Origin: Deltaproteobacteria bacterium RBG_13_61_14
Lineage (GTDB): Bacteria; RBG-13-61-14
DNA length: 7,734 bases
NCBI GenBank assembly: GCA_001797815.1
Contig: MGQK01000039.1
Span: 40,799-48,532 of the forward strand
Direction: 5' to 3'
Notes under the pieces: model-generated
The model's database searches: none
What the model was told of the DNA's origin: nothing
Seen by the model: only the letters and a program-made list of their open reading frames with translations
Shown: piece by piece, positions 1 to 7,449 of the stretch
How the letters are laid out: each line of letters opens with the position of its first letter
How positions within the stretch are numbered: position 1 is the first letter of the stretch
Translations under genes and position numbers: made by a program

Positions 1-795
1 GCGGGGGTCGAGATCCCGGTGATCGCCAAGATCGAGAAGCAGGAAGCGACCCGCAACCTCGACGAGATCCTGGCCGTGGCCGACGGGCTGATGGTGGCCC
101 GGGGTGACCTGGGGGTGGAGATTCCGCTGGAGCAGGTCCCGGCCGTGCAGAAGGAGATCATCCGCAAGGCCAATGCCGCGGGCAAACCGGTGATCACCGC
201 CACCCAGATGCTGCTCTCCATGGTCGCCAGCCCGCGGCCGACCCGGGCTGAAGTCACCGACGTGGCCAATGCCATCCTCGACGGCACCGACGCGGTGATG
301 CTCTCGGAAGAGACCGCGATCGGCCGGTATCCGGCCCAAGCGGCGTCCTTCATGGCCCGGATCGCCTGCGCGGCGGAACAGTCCTTGCGCGGGCTCCCGC
401 TCCGGGCCGAATACCACGAGACGCCCAGCATCCCGGACACCATCAGCTACTCGGCCTGCCTGATGGCCCAGGACCTGGGTGCCCGTGCCATCATCACCCC
501 CACCCGCTCGGGCTATACCACCCGCCTGATCAGCCGCTACCGGCCGGAGGCGCCGATCATCGCGCTCAGCCCCAGCCCGGAAACGGTGCGCCGGCTCTGC
601 CTGACCTGGGGCGCGATCCCCATCCACGTGCCCGCGCTCGAACGCTCCCGCGATTTCCTGGCCCAGGCCGTGGCTTTTGCCAAAAAGGCCGGGCTGGTCA
701 AGCGCGGGGATCGCGTGGTGGTGACGGCCGGGCTGCCGCTCAAGACCGCGGGGATCACCAATCTGATCAAGCTGGAAATAGTGGACGATCGCTGA
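1..795 (+). CDS. pyk: Pyruvate kinase, C-terminal part (5' end outside window)
   Basis: The reading frame is open from base 1, giving the last 264 residues of a protein of usually about 470-580. Pyruvate kinase transfers phosphate from phosphoenolpyruvate to ADP, the last step of glycolysis, in the cytoplasm. Visible in order (fragment numbering): VIAKIE with the catalytic Lys at 10 and the metal ligand Glu at 12; MVARGDLGVEI with the second metal ligand Asp at 36; the ITATQML strand with the active-site Thr; the RPTRAE-DVANAILDGTD block; and MLSEETAIGRYP, where most family members have MLSGETA. The regulatory C-terminal domain (about 130-264) is complete and ends with the usual VTAGLP and a short tail. 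No extra PEP-utiliser domain follows the C domain, as it does in some Bacillus enzymes. The TGA stop at 793-795 lies inside the left copy of the direct repeat flanking the element downstream. Family assignment is secure; the missing N-terminus lies to the left. Confidence 0.97.
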   Translation, partial: AGVEIPVIAKIEKQEATRNLDEILAVADGLMVARGDLGVEIPLEQVPAVQKEIIRKANAAGKPVITATQMLLSMVASPRPTRAEVTDVANAILDGTDAVMLSEETAIGRYPAQAASFMARIACAAEQSLRGLPLRAEYHETPSIPDTISYSACLMAQDLGARAIITPTRSGYTTRLISRYRPEAPIIALSPSPETVRRLCLTWGAIPIHVPALERSRDFLAQAVAFAKKAGLVKRGDRVVVTAGLPLKTAGITNLIKLEIVDDR

Positions 796-798
796 CTT
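789..798. repeat. Left target-site duplication
   Basis: TCGCTGACTT is identical to 915-924 and directly adjoins the left inverted repeat. It contains the TGA stop codon of pyk (793-795), so the duplication left the pyk reading frame intact. Confidence 0.7.
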
Positions 799-844
799 CT
801 TGCCACTTCTCATTTTTTGACCGCACCGCATATTTTCGGCCTGT

Positions 845-872
845 GTAAGGGCGCGATAAATCGCTCCCCTAC
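845..872. repeat. Palindrome inside the MITE-like element
   Basis: Two 12-nt arms (845-856 and 861-872) pair at 10 of 12 positions around a TAAA loop, with the core GCGA-TAAA-TCGC. It resembles the GTAGGGGCGA...TCGCCC(C)TAC type of short interspersed palindrome that is common in environmental bacterial genomes; that comparison is from memory, not from a search. Confidence 0.55.
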
Positions 873-889
873 CCCGCGTGGCGCGGGGT
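871..889. repeat. GC-rich perfect hairpin inside the MITE-like element
   Basis: ACCCCGCG and CGCGGGGT form a perfect 8-bp stem around a TGG loop. It overlaps the preceding palindrome by two bases. No T-run follows on either strand, so it does not qualify as an intrinsic terminator. Confidence 0.6.
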
Positions 890-914
890 TCCCGGAAAAA
901 TGAGGAGTGGCAAG

Positions 915-924
915 TCGCTGACTT
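915..924. repeat. Right target-site duplication
   Basis: TCGCTGACTT is identical to 789-798 and directly adjoins the right inverted repeat. The -35 box of the dapL promoter begins three bases further on, at 928. Confidence 0.7.
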
Positions 925-927
925 TCC

Positions 928-956
928 TTGACCATCGGCATCCGTTCCGTTATCAT
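928..956 (+). promoter_or_regulatory. Sigma70-type promoter of the dapL operon
   Basis: TTGACC (928-933, 5/6 to consensus) and TATCAT (951-956, 5/6) are separated by 17 bp. The expected transcription start is near 963, leaving a leader of about 28 nt that contains the Shine-Dalgarno sequence at 972-980. It lies just outside the MITE-like element, so the promoter predates or survived the insertion. Confidence 0.6.
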
Positions 957-5365: not shown

Positions 5366-5797
5366 CTAGCCCGGCAGGGGCACAAGCTCGCGCACCCTAT
5401 CCACCAACCCCTCGACCGAAGACTCCCGCTTAGGCACAAACCCCCGAAAATTGCGGACGAAGGTGAAGCTGAGCTCCTCGGCCTGCCGGATGCCGTCCTC
5501 AATTAACTCGGGATCTTTGGCCGAGTAAATCAAAAAGGGCGCTTCCCGCAGACCCGCGTGCAATTGGTCCAGCACCGCCGCGATCTGAACCCCGGTCATC
5601 TCCGGCATGTCAAAGTCCAGGATAAAGAGCGCCACGTTCTGAATCAGCGAGGCGTCCGTCTCCAATTGCTTCTCCAGGTCGGACACGTGCTCCGCGGTCA
5701 GGACCCGGTAGCCCTGGTCCTCGAGCGCGTCGGCCACCAACTCCCTCGCAATCGGGCTGTCGTCCACGTAAATCACCAGCGGTCTTTCCGCATTCAT
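5366..5797 (-). CDS. Single-domain response regulator (CheY-like receiver)
   Basis: This is a 143-residue protein made only of a receiver domain. Visible: the acid pair Asp 12-Asp 13 in VIYVDDSP; the phospho-acceptor Asp 61 in ILDFDMPEMTG; the switch Ser 92 in FLIYSAKD; and the conserved Lys 123 in GFVPKR, where the usual Pro after Lys is replaced by Arg. There is no output or DNA-binding domain, so it must act by binding a partner or as a phosphate relay. ATG 5797 is chosen because a GGAAGAGGGG ribosome site lies just before it and the receiver begins immediately after. ATG 5812 and TTG 5824 (whose TTGA overlaps the upstream gene's stop) are in-frame alternatives that only add a short unconserved tail. 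It is the second gene after the cyclase, 23 bp apart, so the two are probably co-transcribed. No histidine kinase is in the window. Confidence 0.92.
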   Translation of the reverse strand: MNAERPLVIYVDDSPIARELVADALEDQGYRVLTAEHVSDLEKQLETDASLIQNVALFILDFDMPEMTGVQIAAVLDQLHAGLREAPFLIYSAKDPELIEDGIRQAEELSFTFVRNFRGFVPKRESSVEGLVDRVRELVPLPG

Positions 5798-5800
5798 GGT

Positions 5801-5810
5801 CCCCTCTTCC
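5801..5810 (-). promoter_or_regulatory. Ribosome binding site favouring ATG 5797
   Basis: On the minus strand GGAAGAGGGG ends 3 nt before ATG 5797, with the AAGAGG core 5 nt away. The upstream alternative starts (5812, 5824) have weaker or no such site. Confidence 0.5.
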
Positions 5811-5820
5811 ATCCCCGCGA

Positions 5821-7449
5821 TCAAGGGTGCAACCCTTCGGTCAGCACCTGATAGACCTGGATCTCCTGTTGCTTGCCTTTGAGCTTGGCCCCGCCCAGAT
5901 CCTTGATCGGAAACAGGCCCCGCACTTTCTGGTAGGTGCCCTCCCCGATCAAAATGGTATTGGGCCGGGCGACATCCTGCAGCCGCGCCGCCACGTTGAC
6001 CGGGTCGCCCAGCACCGTGTATTCGGTCCGGCGCGAACTCCCCAGGTAGCCGGCCACCACCATCCCGGTGTTGATCCCGATCCGGATCTGGAACCGCTTG
6101 CGCTCGTCAATCGCCCGGCGGAATTCTTCCATGCGTCGCAGCATCTCGATGGCCGTGTCCACCGCGAGCTCGGCGTCGTTCCCGTAGGAGATGGGCGCCC
6201 CGAAGATGGCCATCAGCGCGTCGCCGATGAACTTGTCCACCGTCCCCTTGAAATGGAAAACGATCTTGCTCATCTCGTTGAAATAATCCACGATCAGGCC
6301 GGCGGTCTCCTGGGCCGAGAGCTTTTCCGCCAACCGGGTGAAGCCGCAGATGTCGGAAAAAAGCACGGTCACTTCCCGCTCCTCGGCCTGGTGGCTGAAC
6401 TGCTCCAGGGCTTGCGACTGTTGCACGATCAGGTTGACCACGTCCGGCGAGTGGAACCGCTCCAGGTTGGCCCGGAAGATGGCCTCCTGGCGCATCCGCC
6501 GCTGCAACGAGTCCTGGCGGATGGCGAGGGCCACCTGGTTGGCGATGGCGGTGAGCAGGTCCAGGTCGTGCTCGCCGAAGGCGTAGGTCTGGATCAGGTT
6601 GTCCACGTAGATCACGCCCCGGATCGTCTCGCGCTCCCACAGCGGCACGCACAAGGCCGAGCGGATGTTATACTGGACGATGCTCACCCCTTCCTGGAAG
6701 CGGGGGTCGTACTTGGCGTCCGAGGTGATGATCGCCACCTTCTCCTCGATCGCCCGCCGGGCAATGGTCCGGCTCACCGCGATCTCAGGCAGCTCCGCCG
6801 GCTTCTGGCCCCGCATCCGCATGGCCCGGGGCTGGAGGTCGCCCTGCTCGTCCAGGAGCAGGATCACGCCCCGCTCCACGTTGATCACCTGGAAGATCAA
6901 AGTCAAGGTGAGGTCCAACAGTTCATCCAGGCTGTTGGTGCTGTTCAAGGCCCGCGCCACCTGGTAGAGGATGAAGAAGTTCTGGTTGGCCTTCTGCTCG
7001 AACATGGGCGCGGGCAGCCCCGGGGCCGCGGCCGGCGAATAGTCCAACTGCAGGTCCTGGCCCACGTCGGTGACCGGCTTGACGATCTCCTGCCCCATCA
7101 GCGCGGCGTAGACAGGGGAAGACTCCTGGTCCGCCGCGGGCGTCGCCGGCCTCGGGAGGCCGGGCAGGGAATCCTCAAACAGGATCTGGACTCCGCCCAC
7201 CGTGATCACGTCCCCCGGCGCCAGCACTTCGTCGCTGATCCGCAAGTTGTTGATGAAGACCCCGTTCAGGCTGTTGAGGTCCACGATCCGGTAGTGGTTT
7301 TCCTCCCGCCGGATCTCGGCATGGCGGCGAGAGACCAGGGCATCCACCAGCACCACTTCGCACTCGGGCAGCCGGCCCAAACTGGTGACGTCGCGGTTCA
7401 ACTCGATGGTGATCCGTTCCGGGGTGTTGACCAGGACCACACGAGCCAT
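5821..7449 (-). CDS. FHA-GAF-class III adenylate cyclase
   Basis: This is a 542-residue soluble signalling enzyme with three domains. An FHA domain (about 3-92) has Gly 25-Arg 26, SRRH at 40-43 and Asn 62-Gly 63, the phosphothreonine-binding residues. A Pro-rich linker (about 95-150) follows. A GAF domain (about 155-312) lacks the NKFDE cyclic-nucleotide motif. A class III cyclase domain (about 355-540) comes after a short coupling helix with RFHSPDVVNLI. Catalytic residues are all present: metal-binding Asp 366 (FSDICGFT) and Asp 410 (FIGDALMAIFG), purine-selecting Lys 406 and Thr 478 (EYTVLGD), and the transition-state pair Asn 485 and Arg 489 (VNVAARL). A Lys/Thr pair marks class IIIb adenylate cyclases, so cAMP from ATP is the likely product. 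No membrane segment is visible. An in-frame stop 12 nt upstream and the FHA fold beginning at once fix ATG 7449. There is no Shine-Dalgarno, and the promoter sits right before the start. The receiver gene follows 23 bp downstream. Confidence 0.95.
   Translation of the reverse strand: MARVVLVNTPERITIELNRDVTSLGRLPECEVVLVDALVSRRHAEIRREENHYRIVDLNSLNGVFINNLRISDEVLAPGDVITVGGVQILFEDSLPGLPRPATPAADQESSPVYAALMGQEIVKPVTDVGQDLQLDYSPAAAPGLPAPMFEQKANQNFFILYQVARALNSTNSLDELLDLTLTLIFQVINVERGVILLLDEQGDLQPRAMRMRGQKPAELPEIAVSRTIARRAIEEKVAIITSDAKYDPRFQEGVSIVQYNIRSALCVPLWERETIRGVIYVDNLIQTYAFGEHDLDLLTAIANQVALAIRQDSLQRRMRQEAIFRANLERFHSPDVVNLIVQQSQALEQFSHQAEEREVTVLFSDICGFTRLAEKLSAQETAGLIVDYFNEMSKIVFHFKGTVDKFIGDALMAIFGAPISYGNDAELAVDTAIEMLRRMEEFRRAIDERKRFQIRIGINTGMVVAGYLGSSRRTEYTVLGDPVNVAARLQDVARPNTILIGEGTYQKVRGLFPIKDLGGAKLKGKQQEIQVYQVLTEGLHP

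Follow-up and report, generated by a model that had tools for sequence, protein, structure and literature searches.

A MITE family with an apparent promoter register of insertion and a putative two-gene IS4-like parent

We analyzed a stretch of DNA of 7,734 nucleotides (the window) in which a short element lies between pyk and the dapL promoter. Judged from its sequence, positions 799-914 are a MITE, one of at least ~42 delimited copies in the host genome, and the members of this family appear to insert just upstream of sigma70-type promoters, here that of dapL. In the explanation that we propose, and that we consider very probable as a whole, the non-autonomous MITE would be mobilized in trans by the DDE transposase of an IS4-like insertion sequence (IS) with two genes (DUF6788 plus a YREK-bearing transposase) and with inverted ends that read CTTGCCCACCCCCA(G/T)TTTT. 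The transposase would join the element to staggered cuts, so that 9-10 bp are duplicated, and would choose its site in a fixed register, with the duplication ending 3 bp upstream of a sigma70-type -35, so that the element lands just upstream and the promoter stays intact. A GTAG-type REP doublet would be a passenger of the host-genome MITE, and one REP hairpin of the pair would later have been deleted from the window copy.

The element next to dapL and its copies

The original prediction described 10-bp direct repeats and inverted repeats matching at 18 of 19 positions with no gap between them, and its coordinates and matches were reproduced (Table 1); the inverted repeats have 78 nt between them and abut the direct repeats with zero spare bases on both sides. 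It also held that removal of the insert joins the pyk stop to the dapL promoter. This was confirmed: the pyk stop sits inside the left repeat, because the pyk frame terminates there, and the promoter starts 3 bp beyond the right repeat. The adjacency of the pyk stop and the dapL promoter is the target choice of the element itself. The prediction had overlooked the register relative to promoters, the REP nested inside the element and the internal deletion of the window copy. The sole sigma70-like promoter detected in 700-1050 was TTGACC-N17-TATCAT (928-956).

Table 1. Features at the insertion site (positions in the window)
Feature	Position	Strand	Remarks
pyk end	795		reading frame translation; stop codon within left direct repeat 789-798
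left target site duplication TCGCTGACTT	789..798	no strand	10 bp, contains pyk stop codon
left terminal inverted repeat CTTGCCACTTCTCATTTTT	799..817	+	19 nt; same pattern bounds ~42 copies
MITE copy	799..914	no strand	116 bp, by its sequence an internally deleted derivative of the 147-149 bp form
remaining half of GTAG-type REP doublet (GTAAGGGCGCGATAAATCGCTCCCCTAC)	845..872	no strand	alignment and stand-alone doublets
small G+C-rich hairpin CCCCGCGTGGCGCGGGG	872..888	no strand	elsewhere found in long-form copies
right terminal inverted repeat	896..914	-	
right target site duplication TCGCTGACTT	915..924	no strand	identical to left, 10/10
-35 hexamer TTGACC of targeted promoter	928..933	+	3 bp past duplication, offset 14 from element end
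-10 hexamer TATCAT	951..956	+	17-bp spacer from TTGACC, same promoter, reads into dapL

The fold of the element strand had a predicted energy of -57.8 kcal/mol (z = -6.3), and none of 200 shuffles was equally stable. A role of the MITE as a terminator was rejected, as no terminator was predicted, and an Rfam search of the window returned no match. Elsewhere in the window (5366-7449, - strand) a response-regulator-like gene lies beside an FHA + GAF + adenylate/guanylate cyclase-like gene, as judged from translation only.

A similarity search of the host assembly (4.74 Mb, 132 contigs, 95% complete) with the element gave 66 matches, and a search for the end pattern gave 54 forward and 56 reverse sites, compared with 4 and 10 for the control. 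Pairing of these ends delimited the copies, which are 114-149 bp long; the copy counts are lower bounds, only part of the first-look candidates (75 and 112) having been scored or listed. The left 10-mers of all 42 copies were mutually different. Where both flanks were legible, the duplication was perfect (10/10) in 21 of 41 copies and matched at 8/10 or better in 33 of 41; when flanks were mispaired as a control, the mean identity was 2.7 and only 2% reached 8/10. In three copies the duplication was poor (2-3/10), which may reflect decay or wrongly placed boundaries. In a comparison by eye, the window copy was 31-33 bp shorter than the 147-149 bp forms, the spacer being absent together with the first REP hairpin.

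The original prediction had named as support a multicopy family with shared ends and with 10-bp flanks that are duplicated but differ from copy to copy. This is what was observed, and the view of the element as a non-autonomous MITE is upheld: the copies are short and without a gene, they carry 19-nt terminal inverted repeats and duplications at varied sites, and ISs with matching ends exist in other genomes (L216:1-1796 and L217:366-1910, described below). The MITE part of the finding is ordinary. On inspection of two same-order relatives (G001 and G002), the gene order was not conserved and no pyk was evident directly upstream of dapL. Within one MITE copy the two ends are more alike than expected from permutation (3.0 mismatches on average, compared with 4.0 for permuted ends; 0 of 5000 permutations).

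Position of the insertions relative to promoters

We measured offsets outward from the element ends, so that base 14 corresponds to the 10-bp duplication plus 3 bp. Among the flanks of the host copies, a hexamer matching TTGACA at 4/6 or better was present at base 14 in 33 of 84, compared with ~3 of 84 at other offsets. With the threshold raised to 5/6, 26 flanks matched at offset 14, other offsets gave under 1 on average, and the neighboring offsets 12, 13 and 15 gave 0, 1 and 0 respectively. Counted by element, a -35 hexamer lay at 13-15 on one side in 35 of 42, with ~7 of 42 having no recognizable -35 there. The match to TATAAT, anchored on the -35 only, was highest with a spacer of 17 bp (3.17 of 6 on average; at least 4/6 in 16 of 35). 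The register was also seen in 67 further ends, collected independently from other genomes; this set includes some chance in-gene pattern matches, and an exact TTGACA stood at offset 14 in 17 of the 67. Counts of downstream genes for the targeted promoters (32/35 versus 27/34, by mechanical ORF start) did not discriminate the sides. Of the 42 host copies, 29 are oriented with the GCATATTTTCGG end toward the promoter (two-sided P = 0.02).

An association with promoters could in principle arise by survival only, i.e. from random insertion followed by retention of the harmless copies upstream of promoters. Such insertions would be mild, and the copies that we inspected do sit in gaps between genes. 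However, survival cannot yield a register precise to a single base, and the peak at offset 14 with almost nothing beside it, together with the recurrence of this register in other genomes, contradicts this account, which we regard as very unlikely. Survival bias could nevertheless add to the promoter association, but not to the exact register. A closer competitor is a variant of our explanation, with the same MITE and the same parent, in which the cue is a short sequence that lies 12-13 bp from the cut, about CTTGAC and thus similar to the CTTGCC end of the element, and the intergenic occurrences of this sequence happen to be promoters. The C that precedes the hexamer in 74% of the targets, and the resemblance of CTTGAC to the element end, speak for it. 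However, targets with poor hexamers still had a -10 (at least 4/6 at the 17-bp spacing) in 5 of 16 cases, compared with 3% after TTGA generally (P about 1e-4). Targets with good hexamers likewise had more -10 matches (10 of 26) than were found after TTGACA (14 of 90; P = 0.02), but this excess is modest and is also compatible with the survival of intergenic insertions. The poor hexamers with good -10s favor real promoters, although survival of intergenic copies could explain part of this result, and we regard the short-sequence cue as a serious possibility that is somewhat on the lesser side of even. Within our preferred explanation, in which promoters are the targets, the cue may be either the hexamer itself or the polymerase bound at the promoter.

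The parent insertion sequence and the REP doublet

The original prediction gave the parent family as unknown and proposed a search for a full-length IS with matching ends. Such ISs were found in other genomes, with none in the host, and they point to a two-gene IS4-like IS with the same ends and 9-10-bp duplications as the probable parent family. An exact 19-mer scan of one genome per species yielded 36 stretches, a few of them chance in-gene matches, in assemblies named Acidobacteria, Nitrospinota, Deltaproteobacteria, Tectomicrobia, Troglogloeales and others. In these genomes the same ends bound unrelated interiors, and some adjoin a DUF6788 gene and an IS4-like transposase gene. Both genes (DUF6788 and DDE_Tnp_1) are present in L216, between ends at 1 and 1796, where the left flank stops at the contig start and the duplication is not readable. 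Both are also present in L217, whose ends carry at most 3 mismatches and whose duplication (7/9) is followed by a TTGACA 3 bp further on; as the duplication there is 9 bp long and the hexamer stands at offset 13, the 3-bp gap is kept. In the acidobacterial assembly JABCYZ two IS-end insertions are interrupted by contig ends; read across these, both have 10/10 duplications and TTGACA at offset 14. A remnant in the same-order genome G002 combines an end, the start of a DUF6788 gene and pieces of the transposase within ~400 bp.

Because the ends, the duplication length and the target register are common to both, we infer from these sequences that the parent IS moved the host MITEs. In the host genome neither a transposase nor a DUF6788 gene of the parent-IS family was found, which weighs against this view; as the assembly is 95% complete and in 132 contigs, these genes may be missing from it or may have been lost. 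Three host DDE_Tnp_1 genes were rejected as the source, two (L089 and L090) because their nearest inverted repeats differ from CTTGCC and one (L088) because no clear ends were seen.

The putative parent IS has much in common with the IS4 family (PMC2266710). In the alignment D114, D180 and E286 are invariant with spacings of 66 and 106 residues, inside the IS4 ranges of 60-110 and 100-150, and the residues of the Y(2)R(3)E(6)K motif (Y279, R282, E286 and K293) are also invariant; the duplications near 10 bp and the length of 1.5-1.8 kb agree as well. It differs from that family in having two genes (DUF6788 and transposase) instead of one, ends reading CTTGCCC, the promoter register and scores (127.5 and 147.9 bits) that do not reach the NCBIfam IS4 equivalog cut-off (NF033591, 152 bits). 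We call it IS4-like because the IS4 family is described as single-gene. Its only Pfam match was DDE_Tnp_1, plus weak matches to related DDE families, and it does not have a Mutator-superfamily transposase. The nearest annotated plasmid relative found, ISTth2, has 30% identity, ends CTGAG and a 9-bp duplication, and the single copy inspected lacked a -35 at the expected distance. The end-pattern search of viral contigs gave one match, apparently unrelated, and PDB gave no sequence match.

The interior module, GTAGGGGCGCAATTCATTGCGCCC-spacer-GGGCGCGATAAATCGCGCCCCTAC, is a GTAG-type REP doublet: it is a GTAG-tagged palindrome with 191 half-sites in the host genome, where doublets without MITE ends were read at several places. 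It resembles the known GTAG-tagged REPs and doublets (PMC3733652) in its form GTAGGGGCGC(hairpin)..(hairpin)GCGCCCCTAC and in also standing alone, but here it would be a passenger within a MITE, and no RAYT gene matching it was found in the host genome. The presence of these doublets inside the element and of 19 Y1 transposase genes in the host genome raises the alternative that a RAYT (Y1) transposase treated the element as a REP and moved it via its REP hairpins. However, the duplications and inverted ends recur around interiors without these REPs (G002 and G033), REP doublets exist without MITE ends, and the host Y1 genes adjoin a different repeat, in many cases GGGGTCAG, or no repeat, with none adjoining GTAGGGGC. 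We give movement by a RAYT scarcely any credence, and prefer mobilization by the IS4-like parent with the doublet as cargo.

A doublet in the distant genome G033 adjoins a RAYT remnant, whose match (E 2.5e-6) stays under the cut-off. Many of the 19 host Y1 genes (L121-L138), of which several encode close to 320 aa, have GGGGTCAG..CTGACCCC repeats on their flanks, a separate repeat system, and at L085 and L086 MITE ends run into this repeat. A second inverted-repeat element in the host genome, with ends TCATAAC..GTTATGA (L226, L229 and L237 on C9, C73 and C64), also contains a GTAG REP doublet of this kind, and more than one small element family therefore carries it.

Comparison with other promoter-directed elements

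In PMC3942029, insertion at a constant spacing ahead of the sigmaA -35 is described for the TnGBS ICEs, the ISLre2 family and the ISKra4-group ISs (Mutator-type, p-MULT 3/4), and is termed an unusual property among prokaryotic transposases. The present family resembles them: its elements are likewise of the DDE type, land at one set distance before the -35, here offset 14, and leave the promoter intact; it works alike but is not a member. The elements described there have a Mutator-superfamily transposase and insert 15-17 bp upstream of the -35, whereas here the transposase is IS4-like (DDE_Tnp_1, YREK) with 13 bp from the element end to the -35, and the family in the host genome consists of short MITEs. 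Compared with bacterial MITEs as characterized in an excerpt of the review PMC10969869, the copies are likewise short, gene-free and intergenic, with inverted ends, a target duplication and a stable hairpin, but show in addition the fixed promoter register.

A keyword search of the open-access literature found no report of promoter-register insertion by IS4-like elements; on this coverage, the novelty of IS4-like promoter targeting is provisional. DUF6788 may have a role, and the cue may be either the hexamer or bound RNA polymerase/sigma. It is close to an even call, with the balance slightly against, that across several phyla, and separately from the Mutator-type elements, an IS4-like lineage with DUF6788 evolved insertion at a fixed base upstream of sigma70 promoters, possibly via contact with promoter-bound sigma/RNA polymerase and with DUF6788 as the targeting subunit.

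If true, a second transposase superfamily that inserts in this way would have arrived convergently at a safe landing site, and would provide a comparison for what is recognized, i.e. the hexamer or the bound polymerase. Copies of the family would mark promoters base by base in uncultured genomes, and DUF6788, a family with no known function, would gain a role open to testing.
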